This document shows, one piece after another, positions 37,950 through 46,264 of a stretch of DNA of 58,362 bases. The stretch lies in contig NZ_NHSK01000069.1 of assembly GCF_016653355.1 (NCBI RefSeq), forward strand, positions 1 through 58,362. Direction: 5' to 3'. The DNA is from Rhodoplanes elegans. GTDB taxonomy: Bacteria > Pseudomonadota > Alphaproteobacteria > Rhizobiales > Xanthobacteraceae. Position 1 is the first letter of the stretch; each line of letters opens with the position of its first letter. A program made the position numbers and the translations under genes. The notes beneath the pieces were generated by a model. It saw nothing but the letters and a program-made list of their open reading frames with translations. It did no database searches and was not told the origin of the DNA.

Positions 37950-38137
37950 GACGCCGCGGCCCGCCCCCGGGGGTGCGACAATCGTTCCCCCCGCCGCCGC
38001 ATCGGCGCCGCACGGTTGTCGGAAAACCGTCATCGAGCGTCGTTAGGGTCGCGTTTGGGTAACGGGCAGTGCGCCCGGTTGCTCACGGACCGCCGGGGGC
38101 TTGGAATTCGCTTTCGAGCCCCCATATGAGGTCCAAG

Positions 38138-38228
38138 CGGCACGCCGAAAGGTGATCGCCGCACCCGTTCTCACAGGCCGCCTGACCGCGGATGTACCGG
38201 CAGGCTCTGGCCGTGAGACGGGATCCGG
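38138..38228. repeat. Two-part dispersed repeat, copy A
   Basis: Part 1, CGGCACGCCGAAAGGTG (38138-38154), and part 2, starting TGACCGCGGATGTACC at 38183 and continuing through GGCCGTGAGACGGGAT to 38223, match copy B at 38380-38520. Part 2 is identical over 21 bases (38183-38203 versus 38480-38500). The spacing of the parts differs between copies. Confidence 0.7.
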
Positions 38229-38379
38229 CGCCGGGAGGCGCCGGCAGGTTTCCGCCTGACGAGCAGAGTTTCGGACCGGCAGATCATCGCGTGACCCGAG
38301 AGGTCGCGCGCCGCTCTGCCGACGTTTGCGGAACTCGTTTCGGTGGGGATCGTTGATCAGCAGCCGCGGTTCGATGCAT

Positions 38380-38520
38380 CGGCGCGCCGAAAGGTGTCGC
38401 TCGTGCCGACCCACGTTGCCGGACGGTCCCATCGCCGCTCGTCGGTGCGGGATGCCGTCCGTCCCCCTCACGCGACGTCTGACCGCGGATGTACCGGCAG
38501 ACGGCCGCCGTGAGGCGGGA
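38380..38520. repeat. Two-part dispersed repeat, copy B
   Basis: Part 1, CGGCGCGCCGAAAGGTG (38380-38396), differs from copy A by one base. Part 2 begins TGACCGCGGATGTACC at 38480 and continues with GGCCGCCGTGAGGCGGGA. The gap between parts is 83 bases here and 28 in copy A. Confidence 0.7.
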
Positions 38521-38588
38521 TGCGGCCCCGGCTTCGCCGGCGGAGCCGCTCCCTCTTCTGTTTTCCGTTCTTTTTTCACCCTCTCCGA

Positions 38589-40283
38589 TCAGCCCGGCGC
38601 GGCTCCTCCCGCCGGAACGCTTGCGCCGTGGTCGAGCACGCTGCGCAGCTTGGCGGCGAGGCCCGCATAGGTGAACGGCTTGGCGATCAGATGCAGGCCG
38701 GGGTCGAGTCGGCCCTCGTGGACGATGGCGCTGGTCGCATGGCCCGTGGTGAAGATCACCCGCACGTCCGGCCGGCGGCGCACCGCCTCGTCGGCGAGCT
38801 GGCGGCCGTTCATGCCGCCCGGCAGGCCGAGATCCGTGAACAGCAGCGTGACCGCCTCGCGCTCCAGCACGGCGAGCGCTGAGGGGCCGTTCTCCGCCTG
38901 CAGCACCCGATAGCCGAGCTCGCCGAGAATCTCGGCCGAATGCTCGCGCACGTCCGGATCGTCCTCCACCACCAGGATCGTCTCGTGCCGATGGCCCGAC
39001 GGTGTCGCATGCGCGGTCGGCTCGTGCTCGCCGGCGACATCCGCCTCGTCGAGGCGCGGCAGATAGATCTTCACCGTGGTGCCGTGGCCGACCTCCGAAT
39101 GGATGCGCACATGGCCGCCGGACTGCTTGACGAAGCCGTAGACCTGGGAGAGCCCGAGCCCGGTGCCGTGGCCGATGTCCTTGGTCGTGAAGAACGGCTC
39201 GAACGCCTGGGCGATCACGTCGCGGGTCATGCCGGTGCCGGTGTCGGTGACGGCGATCACCACATAGGGGCCCGGCACCACCTCGGCCTCGCGCGCCGCG
39301 CTCGCGTCGTCGAGTTCGGCATTGGCGGTCTCGATCACGATGCTGCCGCCGTTGGGCATGGCGTCGCGGGCGTTGACGGCGAGATTGAGGATCGCGCTCT
39401 CGAGCTGGTTCGGGTCGGCGTTCACGCGCCAGAGGCTGTCGGCCAGCATCGGCGTGACGGCGATCTGCTCGCCGAAGGTGCGGCGGAGCATCTCGACGAT
39501 GGCGCCGACCAGCGCATTGGCGTCGACCGGTTTGGGATCGAGCGGCTGGCGGCGCGCGAAGGCGAGCAGGCTCTGGGTCAGCGCCGAGGCGCGCCGGGCG
39601 CCGCGCGCGGCGTTCTCGAGCGCGCGCTGCAGCCGGTCGGGCGTGTCGTCCGGCAGGTGGCGCTGGAGGATATCGACATTACCCATGATGACGGTGAGCA
39701 GATTGTTGAAGTCGTGCGCGACGCCGCCGGTGAGCTGGCCGATGATCTCCATCTTCTGCGACTGCGCGAGCGCGGCTTCCGCCTTCTCGCGCTGGGCGAT
39801 CTCGTGGCGCAGGCGGGCGTTCGCGTCTTCGAGGTCGCGGGTGCGCTCCTCGACGCGGCGCTCCAGCGTCTCGTTCACGCGCCGGAGCTCGTCCTCGGCG
39901 CGGCGGATGCGCAGCAGCGCGCGGATGGCGGCGGCGAGCTCTTCGGGCTCGGCCGGCTGCACCAGATAGGAATCCGCCCCGCTGTCGAGGCCGGTGGTGC
40001 GGTCGGCCGACGTCGTGAAGGTCGCCGAGGTCTGCAGCACCATCACCTCGGGCCAGCGCGTCTTGATGGCGGCGCACACCTCGGTGCCGCTGCCGCTGAA
40101 GTCGGGCAGCTGCACGTCGAGCAGCACGACCTGCGGTCGATGCTCCTCCACCATCCGCAGCGCGTCCGAGCCGTTCGCCGCCTCGATTACGGCGAAGCCG
40201 GCCCGCATCAGGTCGCGGTTCTTGGTGTAGCGGCCGATCTCGCGGTCGTCGACGTTGAGGACCAGGGGCTTGCCGTCGGTCAT
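38589..40283 (-). CDS. REC-HisKA-HATPase-REC hybrid signalling protein
   Basis: A 564-aa soluble protein. The N-terminal receiver (residues 1-125) has VLNVDDREIGRYTKN and phospho-Asp in VVLLDVQLPDFSG. A coiled coil follows (about 130-175). The dimerisation/phospho-His segment is QLTGGVAHDFNNLLTVIMG (His near 191), and the ATPase has NLAVNARDAMPNGG, DTGTGM and GTGLGLSQVYGFVKQSGG. The C-terminal receiver (about 435-550) has ILVVEDDPDVREHSAEILG and LLFTDLGLPGGMNG. It is the last gene of the stressosome operon, overlapping the preceding kinase by four bases (ATGA). Confidence 0.95.
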   Translation of the reverse strand: MTDGKPLVLNVDDREIGRYTKNRDLMRAGFAVIEAANGSDALRMVEEHRPQVVLLDVQLPDFSGSGTEVCAAIKTRWPEVMVLQTSATFTTSADRTTGLDSGADSYLVQPAEPEELAAAIRALLRIRRAEDELRRVNETLERRVEERTRDLEDANARLRHEIAQREKAEAALAQSQKMEIIGQLTGGVAHDFNNLLTVIMGNVDILQRHLPDDTPDRLQRALENAARGARRASALTQSLLAFARRQPLDPKPVDANALVGAIVEMLRRTFGEQIAVTPMLADSLWRVNADPNQLESAILNLAVNARDAMPNGGSIVIETANAELDDASAAREAEVVPGPYVVIAVTDTGTGMTRDVIAQAFEPFFTTKDIGHGTGLGLSQVYGFVKQSGGHVRIHSEVGHGTTVKIYLPRLDEADVAGEHEPTAHATPSGHRHETILVVEDDPDVREHSAEILGELGYRVLQAENGPSALAVLEREAVTLLFTDLGLPGGMNGRQLADEAVRRRPDVRVIFTTGHATSAIVHEGRLDPGLHLIAKPFTYAGLAAKLRSVLDHGASVPAGGAAPG

Positions 40284-42043
40284 GGCATCGGCCTGTTCTC
40301 GGTGTGCCTGTTCTCGATGAGGTCGTCCAGAAGCATCGCCACGCGTTCGCGCGAAAGATCGCGCTTCGACAGGATGGGGACTCCGGGGCGGATTCGCGCG
40401 GCGATCTCGGGCGTGACGGCGAGCGAAGTCGAGACCACCACCGGGATCCGGCAGGCGCGCGGCTCGGCCTCCAGCCGGTTCAGCGTCGTGAAGCCGTCCA
40501 TCCGCGGCATCTGCAGGTCGAGCAGCACGAGGTCGGGCGCGTCCTCGCAGGCGCGGCGCAGGCCCGCCTCGCCATCGGCCGCCTCGATCACCTCGAAGCG
40601 GTCGCCGCCGATGAGCTGGCGGAAGACGTAGCGGAACGTCTCGTCGTCGTCGATCACCAGCACGCGCCGGCGCGTCGTCGCGGTGCCCTCGCCGACCTCG
40701 CCGAGCCGCGCAGGGATGGACAGGCGGAACACCGAGCCCTGGCCGACCACGCTCTCCACCGACAGCTCGCCGCCGAGCAGCGCCGCCAGGTTGCGCGACA
40801 GCGAAAGCCCGAGGCCGGTGCCCTTCACCTTGCGCTGGATCTGCGTGTCGATCTGGCTGAACTCCTCGAAGATGCGCTCCTGGTGCTCGGGCGGGATGCC
40901 GATGCCGGTGTCGCGCACCGAGAACACGATCCGGCCGCTCGCCTCGTCGTGCACGGCCGAGACGGCGACCTCGCCGGCCTCGGTGAACTTCAGCGCGTTG
41001 GAGATCAGGTTGCGGAGGATCTGCGTGACCTTCGCCTCGTCGGTGAACAGCGAGGGCAGGCCGGCGCCGCTGTCGAAGGAGAGGTCGACGGCCGGATTGG
41101 TCTGCAGCGGCTTGAGCGCACCGCGCAGGCCGCCGAACAGCTCGGCGACCGTGAACGGCACGGCGCGGATCTCGACCTTGCCGGCCTCGACCTTGGCGAG
41201 GTCGAGGAGATCGTTGACCAGTTCCAGGAGTCCTTCGGCGGAGCGGCGGATATAGCCGACCTGCTTCTCCTGCTCGGGGCCGAGATCGCCGTCGACCCGG
41301 TCGAGCAGCAGCCGCGACAGCGCCAGGATCGAGTTCAGCGGGGTGCGGAACTCGTGGCTCATGTGCGAGAGGAAGCGCGACTTCAGCTCACTCGCCTGGC
41401 GGAGCTGCTCGGCCCGCTCGTCGAGCTCGGCATAGAGCGCGACGACGCCGCGATTGGTGTCGGAGAGCTCGCGGTCGAGGGTCTGCGCCTCCTGCTCGCG
41501 CCGGCGCAGGGCGTCGAGCGTCTCGATCAGCTCGCGGTTCTGCTCGCGCAACGCGGCGAGCGGGTCGTCGCCGCCGGCCGCCGCGAGATCGCGGACGATC
41601 TCGGCGAGCCGCGCCGCCGTCACGGGTGCCGCGCGGGTCGGCAGGCGATGGCCGAGCGTCACCACGGTGCCGCCGCCGGCCGGGCAGGCGATGTCGAACC
41701 GGTCCATCAGCCGCTTCGCGCCGACGAGGCCGACGCCCATGCCTTCGGCCGAGCGCCAGCGTCCTTCGAGGACGGCGTCGAGATCGGCGATCCCGGGGCC
41801 ACGGTCGCCGATCCGGATGGTGAAGACCTGCCGGCCGTCGTCGCTGTCGACGATGAACTCGGCGCGGCCGCCCTTGCCGTAGCCGAAGGCGTTGCGGGCG
41901 ATCTCCGACACGGCGGTGGCGATGCGGGTCTGGTCCTGGCGATCGAAGCCGAGCTTCTCGGCGAGCAGGCGGGCGCGCTGGCGCACCGCGACCACGTCGG
42001 CCTCGGCGACGATCGCCATGGTGACGATGGGCCAGCTCGTCAC
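40280..42043 (-). CDS. RsbT-like ATPase fused to hybrid histidine kinase
   Basis: A 587-aa protein from GTG 42043, whose GTGA overlaps the stop of the phosphatase gene and is preceded by GGGGAG; ATG 42019 is the alternative. Residues about 10-125 are an anti-sigma-type kinase domain (AVSEIARNAFGYGKGG, GDRGPGI, GVGLVGAKRLMDRFDI) like RsbT. A coiled coil leads to HisKA (LSHMSHEFRTPLNSIL), HATPase (RNLISNALKFTEAGE, GIPPEHQERIFEEFSQ, GTGLGLSLSRNLA) and a C-terminal receiver (VLVIDDDETFRYVF, LVLLDLQMPRMDG). The fusion would let stressosome-released activity feed a phosphorelay. Confidence 0.93.
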   Translation of the reverse strand: MTSWPIVTMAIVAEADVVAVRQRARLLAEKLGFDRQDQTRIATAVSEIARNAFGYGKGGRAEFIVDSDDGRQVFTIRIGDRGPGIADLDAVLEGRWRSAEGMGVGLVGAKRLMDRFDIACPAGGGTVVTLGHRLPTRAAPVTAARLAEIVRDLAAAGGDDPLAALREQNRELIETLDALRRREQEAQTLDRELSDTNRGVVALYAELDERAEQLRQASELKSRFLSHMSHEFRTPLNSILALSRLLLDRVDGDLGPEQEKQVGYIRRSAEGLLELVNDLLDLAKVEAGKVEIRAVPFTVAELFGGLRGALKPLQTNPAVDLSFDSGAGLPSLFTDEAKVTQILRNLISNALKFTEAGEVAVSAVHDEASGRIVFSVRDTGIGIPPEHQERIFEEFSQIDTQIQRKVKGTGLGLSLSRNLAALLGGELSVESVVGQGSVFRLSIPARLGEVGEGTATTRRRVLVIDDDETFRYVFRQLIGGDRFEVIEAADGEAGLRRACEDAPDLVLLDLQMPRMDGFTTLNRLEAEPRACRIPVVVSTSLAVTPEIAARIRPGVPILSKRDLSRERVAMLLDDLIENRHTENRPMP

Positions 42044-43071
42044 GGTGCGCTCCCCGCCGCGGCCCCGTCGGCCGCCGCCGTGGTCGCGCGCGCGACCAGC
42101 ACCGTCACGTCGTCGCGCTGCCGCCAGAAGTCGCGGAACAGTACGGCCGCGATCAGGGTCGGATGGGCGCGCAGCAGGCCCGGATAGCGATCGAGCGACC
42201 AGCTCGTCGCGAGCCCGTCCGAATGCAGCACCACGACCCCGTCCTCGGCCGGATAGTCGAAGCTCTGGATCTTGCGGGCGACATGACCGGCCGTGCCGGG
42301 CAGCGACACCATGCGGCGGATCGCGGTCGGCGTCACCACGGCGCCGGCGACGTTGCCGATGCCGCCGAACTCGACCTGGCCGGCGGCGATGTCGATCCGG
42401 CCGACCGACACGGCCGCGCCGCGGGTGCCGCGCAGGCCGCCATGGATGTAGTCGAGCAGGGTCGGTACGCGGTGTCCCTTGTGGCGCTGGAACACCCGCA
42501 CGGCCTCGGTCGCCGCCGTCGCCGCGTCGGGGCCGTGGCCGAGGCCGTCCACCACCATCACGGTGCGGGCCGCGTCGGCGTCGTCGACGCTCCAGCCGTC
42601 GCCGCAGACGCTCTCGCCCTCCTTCGGCACCGAGACGACGCCGATGGTGGCGTCGCTCGGCTTGTTGGCCTGCGGCGGCGCGCCCGGCTCGAAACGGGCC
42701 ATCAGGCCGGTGCCGAGCGCCGGCCACGATACCAGCTCGACCGTGTGGGCCTGGCGGAACACCGCCCCCAGCCCGTGCCCGTTGGTGCCGGCGGTCGAGT
42801 AGCCGTCGGCCCGGCAGGCGGCGAGGTCGGCGATGCCGCGCCCCTTGTCGAGCGCCAGCACCTGGATGCCGGCGCCGTCCGGCTCCTCGAAGCCGCCGAC
42901 CAGGATGTCGCCGCCGCCGGCGTGCTTGATCAGGTTGGTGGCGAGCTCGGTGGTGGCGAGCGCGACGCGGCCGACATCGGTGGCGCCGAAGCCGTGCTGC
43001 TCGGCCCGCTCCGCCGCGGTGCGGCGCGCCTCCGAGACCTGGCTCGGCTCGTGGACGGGAACCCGGATCAT
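42040..43071 (-). CDS. RsbX-like PP2C phosphatase with N-terminal RsbT/RsbW-like ATPase domain
   Basis: A 343-aa protein. Residues 1-130 are an anti-sigma-type ATPase (ALATTELATNLIKHAGGG as the N-box, LDKGRGIADL, NGHGLGAVFRQ). Residues 140-330 are a SpoIIE/RsbX-type serine phosphatase with all metal-binding acids: CGDGWSVDD, MVVDGLGHGPDAA, VVVLHSDGLATSW and RDDVTVLVAR. In stressosomes RsbX dephosphorylates RsbR and RsbS to reset the complex. It follows rsbT after a 144-base gap holding a family-A repeat and overlaps the fused kinase gene. Confidence 0.92.
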   Translation of the reverse strand: MIRVPVHEPSQVSEARRTAAERAEQHGFGATDVGRVALATTELATNLIKHAGGGDILVGGFEEPDGAGIQVLALDKGRGIADLAACRADGYSTAGTNGHGLGAVFRQAHTVELVSWPALGTGLMARFEPGAPPQANKPSDATIGVVSVPKEGESVCGDGWSVDDADAARTVMVVDGLGHGPDAATAATEAVRVFQRHKGHRVPTLLDYIHGGLRGTRGAAVSVGRIDIAAGQVEFGGIGNVAGAVVTPTAIRRMVSLPGTAGHVARKIQSFDYPAEDGVVVLHSDGLATSWSLDRYPGLLRAHPTLIAAVLFRDFWRQRDDVTVLVARATTAAADGAAAGSAP

Positions 43072-43083
43072 GTCGGCTGACCG

Positions 43084-43189
43084 GTCATTCCGGGGCGGCG
43101 CGGCAGCGCCGGACCCGGAATCCAGCCCCGGATGCTGAATTGCTCGGCTGGATTCCGGGTTCGCGCCTTCGGCGCGCCCCGGAATGACG
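43084..43189. repeat. Dispersed palindromic repeat, copy 4 of family A
   Basis: The unit begins GTCATTCCGGGGCGGCG and ends GCGCGCCCCGGAATGAC, so its ends are inverted repeats of 12 or more bases; inside are GACCCGGAATCCAG and CTGGATTCCGGGTT, again complementary. It lies within the stressosome operon between rsbT and the phosphatase gene. Confidence 0.8.
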
Positions 43190-43215
43190 GGATTTCGATC
43201 TCGGGGCTCATTGGC

Positions 43216-43620
43216 TCACTTCCATCGCGCACAGACGACGCGGGTGCCCTCGCCGGGCTTCGAATCGATGGAGAACTCGTTGCACAGGCGTTTGGCTCCA
43301 CCCAGCCCGAGGCCGAGCCCGCCGCCCGACGTGTAGCCGTCCTTCAGGGCGAGCGGGATGTCGGCGATGCCGGGGCCCTTGTCCTCGAAGACGAGCCGCA
43401 GGCCGCGCCGGATGCCGTCCGCCACCACCTCGATCTCCGCGACCCCGCCGCCGCCGTAGTCGAGCATGTTGCGGGCGAGCTCGCTCGCCGCCGTGACGAT
43501 CTTGGTCTGGTCCACCAGAGAAAGGCCGACATCGAGGGCGCGCGCCCGCACCTGCTGGCGCACCCGCACGACATCGTCCGAGGAACGGACCTCCATGCGG
43601 TCACGCGTCGTCGTCGCCAT
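43216..43620 (-). CDS. rsbT: RsbT serine/threonine kinase, stressosome switch protein
   Basis: A 134-aa single-domain GHKL kinase: RSSDDVVRVRQQVRARALDVG, then VTAASELARNMLDYGGGG (N-box with the Mg-binding Asn), FEDKGPGIADI and GYTSGGGLGLGLGGAKRL (ATP lid). Length matches RsbT. It would phosphorylate RsbR and RsbS and be released to switch on a downstream target. The start overlaps the rsbS gene by 20 bases. Confidence 0.94.
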   Translation of the reverse strand: MATTTRDRMEVRSSDDVVRVRQQVRARALDVGLSLVDQTKIVTAASELARNMLDYGGGGVAEIEVVADGIRRGLRLVFEDKGPGIADIPLALKDGYTSGGGLGLGLGGAKRLCNEFSIDSKPGEGTRVVCARWK

Positions 43621-43990
43621 CGGCGCTCTCGGTCTCGGCGATCCGGCGTTCGAGCAGGGCCATGCCGCGCTCCACGTTGAGCGCGGTCTTCACGCCCGAC
43701 AGCGAGAGGCCGAGCTCGACCAGCGTGATGGCGACGGCGGGGCGCATGCCCACCACCACGGTCTCGGCGTCGAGCATGCGCGAGATCGCGGCGATGTGGT
43801 CGAGCATCCGGCCGATGAAGCTGTCGACGATCTCCAGCGCCGAGATGTCGATCAGCACGCCCCTGGCGCGCGCCGAGACGATCTTCTCGGTTAAGTCCTC
43901 CTGCAGGGCGGTGGCGAGCCGGTCGTGCATGTCGACCTGGATGGTCACGAGGAGCGCGTGGCCGAGCTTGAGGATCGGAATGCGGTCCAT
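43601..43990 (-). CDS. rsbS: RsbS STAS-domain stressosome protein
   Basis: A 129-aa single STAS domain: IPILKLGHALLVTIQVDMHD, then GVLIDISALEIVDSFIGRML, in which the Ser of DIS is the site phosphorylated by RsbT in Bacillus RsbS, and VGMRPAVAITLVELGLSL. It forms the stressosome core with RsbR. It starts four bases after the rsbR stop region and overlaps rsbT, giving the classical R-S-T order. Confidence 0.94.
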   Translation of the reverse strand: MDRIPILKLGHALLVTIQVDMHDRLATALQEDLTEKIVSARARGVLIDISALEIVDSFIGRMLDHIAAISRMLDAETVVVGMRPAVAITLVELGLSLSGVKTALNVERGMALLERRIAETESADGDDDA

Positions 43991-43994
43991 GTGG

Positions 43995-44882
43995 TCAGCC
44001 CGCCGGCTGCTCGCGGTCGCGCACCGCAGCCTTCAGGGGGGCCACGGTGCGGCCGATCCGGCGCAGCGCCAGCGCAAAGGCGTCCGCCAAGGTCGCCTTG
44101 GAGACGACGTTCAGCTCGACGCCGAGATGGACCATGGTCTGGGCGATCTGCGGGCGGATGCCCGAGATGATGCAGTCGGCGCCCATCAGCCGGGCCGCCG
44201 ACACGGTTTTCAGGAGATGCTGCGCCGTCAGCGTGTCGACGGTCGGCACCCCGGTGATGTCGATGATGGCGATCTCGGCCGTCTGCGCGACGATCGACTC
44301 GAGCAGGTTCTCCATCACCACCTGGGTGCGCTGGCTGTCGAGCGTGCCGATCAGCGGCAGCGCCAGCACGCCGTCCCACAGCTTGACCACCGGGGTCGAC
44401 AGCTCGGCGATCTCGCGCTGCTGCCGGATGATCGTCTCCTCGCGGCTCTTCTGGAACACCTCCATGGTATGAAGGCCGAGGGCGTCGATCATCAGGGTGA
44501 GGTCGCAGATGGTCCGGGTGGCGGCTGCCGGGTCCATTCCCTTGGCCGTGCCGATCGCCTCGAACAGCGGCGGCTTCAGCGAGAACACGAAGGACACGGT
44601 CTCGGTCGGCGTGAAGCCCTGTGCGGCGCGCGAGCGCGAGATGTCGGTGAGCATGTCGCGCAGCGGGCCGTAGGCGGGGCTCGCGGCGTCGAGACCGGCC
44701 GCCACGGCGGTCGTCAGGAGGTCGAGCACGGTGCGGCACTGCGTCTGCAGCTCGGCCTCGCGGATGCGACCGCTCGCCAGCGCGCCGCTCGCGCGCAGGC
44801 GCTCCGTCCAGTCGGACAGCAGCGCGGCGCTTCGCTCGGCGAGGATCGTGGCGAGGGGATTGGCTTGCGGGCGGGCGATCAT
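43995..44882 (-). CDS. rsbR: RsbR stressosome sensor protein
   Basis: A 295-aa protein from ATG 44882 (MIARPQANPL); the longer frame is not conserved-looking. The N-terminal half (1-160) is the helical RsbRD/globin-like sensor (WTERLRASGALASGRIREAE, ETVSFVFSLKPPLFEAI). A linker helix QREIAELSTPVVKLWDGVLA leads to the STAS domain, with IIDITGVPTVDTLTAQHLL and SGIRPQIAQTMVHLG, which keep both threonines phosphorylated in Bacillus RsbRA. It heads the six-gene operon. The signal sensed is unknown. Confidence 0.93.
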   Translation of the reverse strand: MIARPQANPLATILAERSAALLSDWTERLRASGALASGRIREAELQTQCRTVLDLLTTAVAAGLDAASPAYGPLRDMLTDISRSRAAQGFTPTETVSFVFSLKPPLFEAIGTAKGMDPAAATRTICDLTLMIDALGLHTMEVFQKSREETIIRQQREIAELSTPVVKLWDGVLALPLIGTLDSQRTQVVMENLLESIVAQTAEIAIIDITGVPTVDTLTAQHLLKTVSAARLMGADCIISGIRPQIAQTMVHLGVELNVVSKATLADAFALALRRIGRTVAPLKAAVRDREQPAG

Positions 44883-45266
44883 GGGCCGGCGTGACCTCTG
44901 GTGTCGGAGATGGAGACGGATGATGCCGGACGGGGCGCGAGCCCGCGGCAGGCGGGCGGCGTGCGCGACACGGTCCGGGAGCGAGTCATGAAGGGCGACC
45001 ATCGATGAGCGGGATCGATGTCGCCATCGATGGCCCTGATAGCGACTCGCCGCAGCGAGGTCGAGCGATCAGGACTCCGAACGGTCACTTGCCGAACAGA
45101 TCACGATGCTTGGACTCGACGGCGGTCACGTGCCGTCGGTAACGCGGTCCGCGGCGGATTGGTTCCGTCCGGAGACGACATCGATCGGTCGAGCATCGGT
45201 GCCGAGAATCGGTGCCGAGAATCGGTCGAACAGGATCGAGAGCGAGCCCATCGGAACCGAGGAATT
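44883..45266. other. Promoter region of the stressosome operon
   Basis: These 384 bases contain a short tandem repeat, ATCGGTGCCGAGA, present twice in full and a third time in part (45195-45226). The long frames crossing it are shadows. The stressosome promoter should lie here, or the operon may be read from the promoter of the tRNA-like gene upstream. Confidence 0.4.
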
Positions 45267-45344
45267 TGGAGGCTCAGCCTGGACTCGAACCAGGATAGGG
45301 GAGGGCGGTCGGCTCTCCCCGCGTCGCCATTCCGCCACCGAGCC
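45267..45344 (-). tRNA. Aberrant tRNA-like gene with encoded CCA (Leu-like D arm)
   Basis: Read on the minus strand, GGCTCGG and CTGAGCC form a seven-pair acceptor stem (one G.U), followed by T and CCA. The T arm, CCTGG-TTCGAGT-CCAGG, is perfect. The D region TGGCGGAATGGCGACGC strongly resembles tRNA-Leu. The anticodon arm does not fit: GGGGAG/CTCCCC encloses an 11-base loop, and the alternative five-pair fold GGGAG/CGCCC has an A.G mismatch, a loop AGCCGAC lacking U33, and a short variable region. No anticodon can be assigned safely. Total length is 78 with CCA. It may be a decayed tRNA or a tRNA-shaped regulatory RNA. Confidence 0.6.
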
Positions 45345-45354
45345 ACCACGGAGA

Positions 45355-45383
45355 ATGGTAGTAGTCGCGGCCACGCGCCGCAA
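45355..45383 (-). promoter_or_regulatory. Sigma-70-like promoter of the tRNA-like gene
   Basis: On the minus strand TTGCGG (45383-45378), a 17-base spacer and TACCAT (45360-45355) precede the first acceptor-stem base by 10 bases. Spacing and distance are those of a strong housekeeping promoter with a very short leader, which supports the RNA being transcribed. Confidence 0.5.
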
Positions 45384-45439
45384 CCGGAACCGGTGGTTAA
45401 CTTTACCATCGTGATAACCATGGGTTTACCGCGATGGCG

Positions 45440-46264
45440 TCACCGCGCGGGTGTCGATCGGCCCGCGTCGACGAACGCCCGAACGTCCGGGAGCGCCGCC
45501 CGCGCGATCGCCTCCGCCTCCCGCCGCGGCATGCCGGGCCGCATCCGCGGATGGTAGAGCAGGCCGAGCAGATAACGGTCGTAACGACCGAAGCGCCCGG
45601 TGCGCACCGCATCGTTGAACATCGTCCAGGGCAGTGTGGTGTCGTTGATCGGTCCGAGCGCCTGCAACGTCTCTTCGATCGTACAGTCCCGGAACGCGAA
45701 ATCGGACGTGTCGGCGACCAGGATCACGGCGGCCTGGCGGATCCGGAAGGCCTCGTCGCGCGAGAAGCCGCTGACGCAGTCGGGGGCGAGGCGGCGCAGG
45801 ATCGTGCTCGCCCGGTCGGGTCCGAAGACCGCGGTGACGGTCGCTGCGAAGGCGCGTCGGCGGACGATCAGGATCGTGAGATTCGCGTCGGCGCGGTCGT
45901 GCGTCGTCGCGATGTCGAGGTGCTGCACGCCGCGTCCGATCTCGGCCACCACGGCCTCGACCGTCGCGGTGCGCGCCGCCGCGAGGTCTGGCGGCGCCCC
46001 GGCGGCATCGACGAGCACGCGCACCGGGCCGTCGAAGCGGCGGATGCGATCGGTGGTGCCGGTGGCGTACTCGGCCCCGAAGGCGACGGCCAGGAAGCCG
46101 CGCACGATCTGACGATCGGTGAAACGCGCCGGGCCGGCGGCCGGCCGCCGCTCCGCCGCGGCCGCCGGGCTCGCCGCGGCGACCGGGATCAGGACCGCCA
46201 TGGCGAAAGCGACGGCGAGACGGACGGCGAGCCGCGTGGCGGCTCCGGCCGGGGTCCGGTGCAC
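45440..46264 (-). CDS. DUF2927 family secreted protein
   Basis: A 274-aa protein. The start is probably GTG 46264, 26 bases after the upstream stop, giving a signal peptide (RLAVRLAVAFAMAVLIPVAAA, cleaved near AAAAERR); ATG 46201 is too close to the cleavage site. The DUF2927 core is clear: FTDRQIVRGFLAVAFGAEY, then FDGPVRVLVDAAGA, and CVSGFSRDEAFRIRQAAV. Catalytic residues are not known; the fold looks like a metalloprotease-related putative lipoprotein family. It follows the coiled-coil protein on the same strand. Confidence 0.82.
   Translation of the reverse strand: MHRTPAGAATRLAVRLAVAFAMAVLIPVAAASPAAAAERRPAAGPARFTDRQIVRGFLAVAFGAEYATGTTDRIRRFDGPVRVLVDAAGAPPDLAAARTATVEAVVAEIGRGVQHLDIATTHDRADANLTILIVRRRAFAATVTAVFGPDRASTILRRLAPDCVSGFSRDEAFRIRQAAVILVADTSDFAFRDCTIEETLQALGPINDTTLPWTMFNDAVRTGRFGRYDRYLLGLLYHPRMRPGMPRREAEAIARAALPDVRAFVDAGRSTPAR

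Follow-up and report, generated by a model that had tools for sequence, protein, structure and literature searches.

We analyzed a 58,362-nucleotide stretch of Rhodoplanes elegans DNA (assembly GCF_016653355.1, contig NZ_NHSK01000069.1; hereafter, the window) and identified a six-gene stressosome operon on the minus strand (44882 to 38589) that encodes RsbR, RsbS, RsbT, an RsbX-like protein (X), a hybrid histidine kinase (HK), and a protein with a receiver (REC)-HK-REC arrangement. The hybrid HK begins with a GHKL ATPase domain of the RsbT type (hereafter, HKN). We conclude from a survey of 62 stressosome loci that the HKN-bearing HK is a real and widespread variant of stressosome output, and the main interest of the operon lies in an HK that carries a relative of RsbT and in the natural variants around it. 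We interpret the operon as an RsbR-RsbS-RsbT-X (RSTX) stressosome that would have a two-component output without a sigma-B branch. Its client would be the adjoining hybrid HK, HKN would be derived from RsbT and serve in docking or regulation, and X would be a kinase/phosphatase reset enzyme similar to SypE of Vibrio fischeri. We give this reading as a whole an even chance; the gene order, domains, conservation, domain ancestry, and motif specificity on which it builds are directly supported. The genes and domains are as follows.

43995..44882, minus strand: rsbR (P0001), RsbRD_N sensor domain and STAS (Pfam); phosphosite equivalents Ser (DSQR) and Thr (VDTL)
43601..43990, minus strand: rsbS (P0002), STAS (Pfam), with the VDSF serine conserved
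43216..43620, minus strand: rsbT (P0003), switch kinase, Pfam HATPase, N-box SELARN (Pfam, motif table, and tree)
42040..43071, minus strand: rsbX-like gene (P0004), GHKL domain (~42673-43071) fused to an RsbX-type PP2C domain (~42082-42654)
40280..42043, minus strand: hybrid HK (P0005), HKN, coiled coil, HisKA, HATPase_c, and REC; the GTG start overlaps the rsbX stop
41642..42022, minus strand: HKN, RsbT-type GHKL domain at the N terminus of the HK (Pfam, motif table, tree, and fold search)
41384..41563, minus strand: predicted coiled-coil linker (QNRELL... then TNRGVVALYAELDE) into HisKA; motif DNA at 41426-41449
38589..40283, minus strand: REC-HisKA-HATPase_c-REC protein (P0006), putative phosphorelay partner; CckA-like core, below the CckA model cut-offs

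The first-pass annotation, made from the sequence without database searches, had described these six genes on one strand, and Pfam and the open reading frames (ORFs) confirmed it. The overlaps of 4 to 20 bases that it reported throughout were found at the rsbS-rsbT (20 bp), X-HK (4 bp), and HK-P0006 (4 bp) junctions, but rsbR and rsbS are separated by a 4-bp gap and rsbT and X by a 144-bp gap. The X-HK overlap depends on the GTG at 42043, which we chose as the HK start. Pfam found STAS, HATPase_c_2, and SpoIIE domains in the respective proteins: P0004 matched HATPase_c_2 (residues 8 to 112; E = 1.3e-9) and SpoIIE (residues 171 to 329; E = 4.7e-7), and P0005 matched HATPase_c_2 (residues 16 to 131; E = 3.4e-16), HisKA, HATPase_c, and REC. 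The components that define an RsbRST stressosome (i.e., RsbR with a sensor and a STAS domain, the RsbS STAS protein, and the RsbT kinase) are thus encoded in a single operon. At the positions that we take to be the phosphosites, suitable residues were conserved among 56 loci of the survey (RsbR site 1, Ser in 53 and Thr in 3; RsbR site 2, Thr in 50 and Ser in 6; RsbS, Ser in 46, Thr in 4, and another residue in 6). The closest named relative found was Rhodoplanes tepidamans, whose X is 87% identical in the best-matching segment.

In three overlapping genome sets, an RsbS profile matched 16 of 387 genomes (class), 36 of 397 (phylum), and 13 of 397 (order). The 62 distinct loci comprise 14 found via X, 50 retrieved stretches, and the window, minus three duplicates (L021 = L051; L034 = L031, by strain and coordinates; L101 = L022). 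Nine RsbS-positive genomes lie outside the survey (G079, G334, G727, G454, G488, G516, G545, G547, and G599); all were weak matches (E of 6e-14 or worse) that may hold distant modules. The gene order R-S-T-X(GHKL-PP2C)-HK recurred in alpha-, beta-, and gammaproteobacteria and in one acidobacterial genome, and is therefore not due to chance. X was a GHKL-PP2C fusion in 49 of the 62 loci. HKN was present on the HK in 26 loci, so that the arrangement, which had at first seemed singular, is not. These 26 HKs had a classical HisKA core (17 loci), a CckA-like core (L070, L082, and L103), or a HisKA_2 core (6 loci, each with a Pfam HisKA_2 match). A further 17 loci encoded a short HK with only a short N-terminal helix and no HKN, and six encoded an HK with an RsbU_N match, either above the Pfam cut-off (L065, L066, and L088) or below it (L053, L054, and L062; E = 3e-4 to 0.014). 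In the remaining 13 loci, the stretch ended before the HK, the frame was broken (L033, where X and the HK share one broken-looking frame and were counted apart), other HKs were present, or no HK was found.

The six HisKA_2-type kinases fused to HKN (L058, L060, L063, L104, L105, and L106) are encoded directly after X; no downstream receiver gene was seen by eye in the ORF listings of L058, L060, and L063. A genome of the same genus as the window (G003) carries two stressosome operons of different types, L054 (G003:C8) and L052 (G003:C12), and L053 (G002) is also of the second type, like L054. At two other loci (L092:3329-4372 and L093:1513-2553), R and S are followed by a GHKL-PP2C fusion and no separate RsbT was found; the switch kinase and the reset phosphatase may be one protein there.

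The survey bears on the possibility that the HK is cotranscribed with the stressosome genes but senses its signal otherwise, the stressosome acting only via X or RsbT on an unlinked target and HKN being a vestigial fusion. Some loci do have other kinases, or none that was found, after X, and one HKN (L075) is degenerate. We nevertheless regard this explanation as quite improbable: HKN persists in 26 of 62 loci, spread over kinase cores of three types, and of the 22 HKN rows in the motif table, 21 retain the N-box Asn and G1 Asp (a misassigned HKN row of L067 was dropped before counting).

The ancestry of the three GHKL domains, i.e., RsbT (T), HKN, and the N-terminal domain of X (XN), was assessed with two trees that omit near-duplicate loci; the smaller one also omits long branches. 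The degenerate L075 HKN is outside the trees and residue counts and inside the count of 26. In the 107-row tree, HKN formed a single clade (support, 98/97), as did 33 XN rows (100/97), and the main RsbT clade contained 32 rows (99/98); the XN rows of L092 and L093 fell outside the XN clade. All three domain types were split from five ordinary HK ATPases (99/96). The 74-row tree placed T and HKN on one side and, on the other (95/89), XN together with T2, a free-standing kinase encoded before a stand-alone PP2C in L053, L054, and L062. As judged from these trees, HKN and XN are old, separate lineages, and XN groups with T2 rather than with RsbT; X looks like a T2-PP2C fusion. A recent duplication of the switch kinase, as proposed by the first-pass annotation, is therefore ruled out. 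Its description of three successive RsbT-like modules held for RsbT and HKN, which alone have the RsbT-type N-box, but not for the GHKL domain of X, which belongs to the other lineage. The N-box arginine (R48) was present in 42 of 42 T rows of the main group, 11 of the 12 remaining T rows, and all 21 HKN rows, and in only 4 of 44 XN rows.

A Foldseek search with the HKN model (pLDDT, 83; pTM, 0.49) returned SpoIIAB at PDB ranks 1 to 5, with HKs from rank 6 onward. Together with the tree split, this rules out the fused N-terminal domains being ordinary HK ATPases and bears out their earlier assignment to the serine-kinase type. Because SpoIIAB, the nearest fold, is a dimer and HKN and T lie on the same side of the tree, HKN might instead be the heterodimer partner of freed RsbT and so switch the HK without stressosome contact. 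This we consider distinctly unlikely, given that HKs without HKN share the helix motif described below and would have to be reached in another manner.

All 21 intact HKN domains retain the RsbT-type N-box (Arg before Asn) and the ATP-site residues. This conservation of E, N, and D would also suit an active serine kinase that acts on RsbS/RsbR (or on the HK or its receiver) and provides feedback to the stressosome instead of docking. However, the same conservation is expected if a binding-only domain needs ATP for its shape, and at L075 (L075:4660-5535) HKN has been retained although its N-box Asn, G1, and G2 are lost. R14, E40, R43, and the linker are kept in that protein, which fits binding rather than catalysis there. 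We consider an active HKN kinase unlikely.

X itself was modeled with high scores (AlphaFold; pLDDT, 91.8; pTM, 0.91). The best PDB hits of its phosphatase half, both by profile and by Foldseek, were 3zt9 (an entry titled on the bacterial stressosome) and Bacillus subtilis RsbX (3w40). Its PP2C domain is accordingly nearest to RsbX rather than RsbU, and Pfam detected no RsbU_N domain in X at an E of 0.001. X departs from single-domain RsbX in its additional N-terminal GHKL domain; the solved chains of these nearest relatives (193 and 199 residues) cover the phosphatase half only. In the 32 aligned sequences of the 49 fused X proteins, E42, N46, and D75 of the GHKL domain and D158, D175, D285, D320, and D321 of the PP2C domain were invariant, i.e., the catalytic residues of both halves are intact. 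By analogy with SypE, X may act as both kinase and phosphatase for RsbS/RsbR.

In the HK model, residues 154 to 240 form a single unbroken helix that spans the linker and continues into HisKA. Immediately before HisKA, all 20 HKN HKs with HisKA or CckA-like cores, every one of the 17 short HKs, and the broken frame of L033 have the motif TN.G(V/I)(V/L)AL(Y/H).E. The six HisKA_2 kinases lack it, as do the six RsbU_N-type HKs and the large HKs encoded at L067, L089, L090, and L091. A DNA pattern for GV.ALY.E had one match in the genome of origin, inside the window HK. Among 397 genomes of the phylum, the pattern yielded 19 matches in 18 genomes (4 with the backward control), of which 16 were in stressosome HKs (15 by coordinates plus the window); the other three were not in an HK according to the ORFs read. 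The string GVVALYAELD did not occur in the literature searched, and Pfam gave no RsbU_N match on the window HK even at an E of 1.

The residues through which RsbT contacts its client were also compared, with RsbT numbered on what we take to be the B. subtilis reference sequence. Here and below, statements on published systems refer to text passages of the cited papers. R19, R23, N24, and D92 of RsbT are reported at the RsbU interface (PMC12143880). The R19 equivalent was present in 42 of 42 T rows of the main group (12 further T rows were counted apart), 21 of 21 HKN rows, and 42 of 44 XN rows. At the R23 position, HKN has Arg in 12 and Lys in 5 of 21 rows. RsbT retained R23 at all 38 loci with a motif-bearing HK and at all six RsbU_N-type loci and lost it at all six motif-less HisKA_2 loci, three of which (L104 to L106) were retrieved after the pattern had been noticed.

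In our preferred reading, RsbR, with its RsbRD_N sensor, and RsbS would form the STAS core, which RsbT, as expected from its family, would phosphorylate under stress. The hybrid HK encoded next to X would be the stressosome client. Its HKN domain, a diverged RsbT relative that keeps the kinase-family arginine and the ATP-site residues, may hold the HK on the STAS surface of the stressosome or sense free RsbT, and an uninterrupted helix could carry the state of HKN to the HisKA dimer. Within that helix, the TN.GV.ALY.E segment would probably be where RsbT docks or where its signal is passed on, comparable to the RsbU linker in Bacillus. X would dephosphorylate, and so reset, the core, and its GHKL half may act as a kinase on the STAS proteins of that core, in the way that SypE phosphorylates SypA. 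The HK would then feed the REC-HK-REC protein. Docking, the direction of the signal, the kinase activity of X, and phosphotransfer are the steps that we infer.

Several observations weigh against this reading. Most T and XN rows have retained D92, and all 21 HKN rows have Gly instead; HKN therefore touches no client in the manner of RsbU. In operons with HKN, D92 of RsbT itself is intact throughout (22 of 22), and R23 is intact in most cases (19 of 22), so that HKN has not taken over the role of RsbT, and HKN as a replacement for RsbT is not favored. The design can dispense with HKN, as the 17 loci with short HKs illustrate. The correlation between R23 and the helix motif may reflect one event, because L058, L060, L061, and L063 have T rows that cluster in a single clade (98/97), and R23 was mixed in the ten T-row loci without a motif, RsbU_N, or HisKA_2 kinase (Arg in L030, L064, L067, and L087; Lys in two; another residue in four). 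The deep forks of the trees are poorly resolved, and the branching order of HKN and T is not settled by them. The pTM of the HK model is 0.49, which makes its domain placement unreliable. Finally, hybrid HKs usually need an Hpt protein, and Pfam found none among the six operon proteins.

The STAS side of the putative contact was also conserved: an equivalent of RsbS Asp20 was present in 46 of 56 loci (with Glu in 6 more) and one of Asp23 in 54 of 56. In a model of SypA and SypE, acidic residues of SypA contact arginines of SypE (PMC10120452). A more far-reaching proposal, which we hold only tentatively, is that the HK serves as its own switch protein, having arisen by fusion of an RsbT relative to a histidine kinase, and would be directly captured and released by the stressosome. 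RsbT, the GHKL half of X, and HKN would then be rivals for a single STAS surface, where RsbS Asp20/Asp23 would face the shared arginine, and the input unit (HKN plus coiled coil) would have moved onto three kinase cores, including HisKA_2, whose kinase family signals into the general stress response of alphaproteobacteria. EcfG would transcribe the operon in some Hyphomicrobiales, which would close a loop between two bacterial general stress systems.

Three further features lie outside the protein-coding regions of the operon.

45267-45344, minus strand (the strand of the operon): tRNA-Arg (CCG), directly upstream of the operon
45141..45166, minus strand: EcfG-type promoter-like motif GGAAC-N17-CGTT, upstream of rsbR, between tRNA-Arg and rsbR
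43072..43215, minus strand: rsbT-rsbX gap (144 bp) with a copy of a palindromic intergenic repeat at 43085-43200

The genome was searched for the sigma factor branch that the first-pass annotation had taken to be missing. No SigB/F/G model match exceeded the cut-off in the 320-contig assembly (best, 135.8 of 234 bits), and the genome contains one SpoIIE domain and three STAS domains, two of which are those of rsbR and rsbS. The third STAS domain (G000:C262:3621-3893; 24.6 bits) lies in an open frame of 464 amino acids. HATPase_c_2 had 29 matches in the genome, 26 of them outside the window operon. Six of the corresponding outside ORFs were read (L001, L003, and L005 to L008; the other 20 were not) and appeared by eye to be HKs or other HK-like ATPases; that of L006 contains a LuxR-type helix-turn-helix stretch. 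Thus, neither an ordinary HK ATPase at the fused N termini nor a SigB partner-switching set (SigB, RsbV, RsbW, and RsbU), either of which would speak against the first-pass interpretation, was found in this assembly, with the limit that RsbV/RsbW are not strictly excluded, as the third STAS domain (C262) and most outside HATPase_c_2 matches were not followed. The SigB/F/G and SpoIIE results agree with the claim that no partner-switching sigma factor is involved, but this claim is weakened by the EcfG-type motif and by NepR, which is encoded in the genome and is the anti-sigma factor in the general stress response of alphaproteobacteria.

The EcfG promoter is described as GGAAC-N16-CGTT (PMC7083833). 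With a spacer of 16 to 17, such a motif preceded rsbR in 5 of 24 alphaproteobacterial loci (including the window), 1 of 6 alphaproteobacterial loci added later, and 0 of 32 others; the reversed motif was found in 0 of 62. A wider scan added L062, with an 18-base spacer. The motif was not in excess in the window (2 matches; 1.2 expected) or on both strands of 270 kb from 23 alphaproteobacterial loci (9 matches; 10 with the reversed control), where 4 of the 9 were upstream of rsbR; nonalphaproteobacterial loci had 6 matches in 418 kb. Because there is no overall excess, the evidence lies only in the position of the motif and its reappearance in relatives, and three of the six positive loci belong to one genus. 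We therefore keep EcfG control of the rsbR operon as a lead that is suggestive and not proof.

A simple scan detected no sigma-70-like promoter or terminator, and no Rfam family reached the gathering score in 38000-46000. The palindromic repeat of the rsbT-rsbX gap is predicted to fold into a long and very stable hairpin (-83 kcal/mol; z, -6) and occurs at no fewer than 40 places in the genome (80 matches, one per orientation of every copy; 40 of 340 candidates scored); it is absent from the rsbT-rsbX junction of L052. The repeat may alter the ratio of T to X.

Gram-negative RSTX modules with phosphorelay or c-di-GMP outputs, some with RsbU_N on downstream proteins, have been described by Heinz et al. 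(2022; PMC9237108). The window operon resembles these modules in its R-S-T-X order followed by HisKA/REC proteins and in having no SigB branch; it differs from them in that theirs have a single-domain PP2C X and a globin-type RsbR. For the Vibrio RSTX module, binding of RsbT to the downstream two-component protein D1 could not be shown (PMC9237108). An HK bearing an RsbT-like domain is not mentioned in the passages of that paper, its Fig. 3 drawing left aside. Baral et al. (2025; PMC12143880) describe activation of RsbU by RsbT through a coiled coil and mention RsbU_N HKs in stressosome operons. As in that system, an RsbT-type protein would act on a helix that feeds a dimeric effector, whereas the window HK has no RsbU_N match, carries the RsbT relative in cis, and has an HKN without the D92 contact. 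SypE, a kinase-REC-PP2C protein that acts on a serine of the STAS protein SypA (PMC10120452), shares with X an N-terminal serine kinase and a C-terminal PP2C domain in one protein. Unlike SypE, with its central REC domain, X has none that was found, and it is encoded in an RST operon. Rv1364c (3ke6), which was matched by both the HKN and X searches, likewise combines PP2C (RsbU) and RsbW-type domains in one chain, but its phosphatase precedes the RsbW domain, the reverse of X. To our knowledge, no RST module lies beside Rv1364c. No description of an HK with its own RsbT-like domain was found in the text passages of the literature searched.

The X fusion may be a single enzyme that both writes and erases phosphorylation on the stressosome core, and the helix motif provides a short marker for many stressosome HKs in raw genomes. 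The operon family offers natural variants, namely HKs that carry RsbU_N, a built-in RsbT relative, a degenerate version of that relative, or only the bare helix. Together with the helix motif, these variants make the signal-transfer step directly testable for stressosomes that lack SigB.

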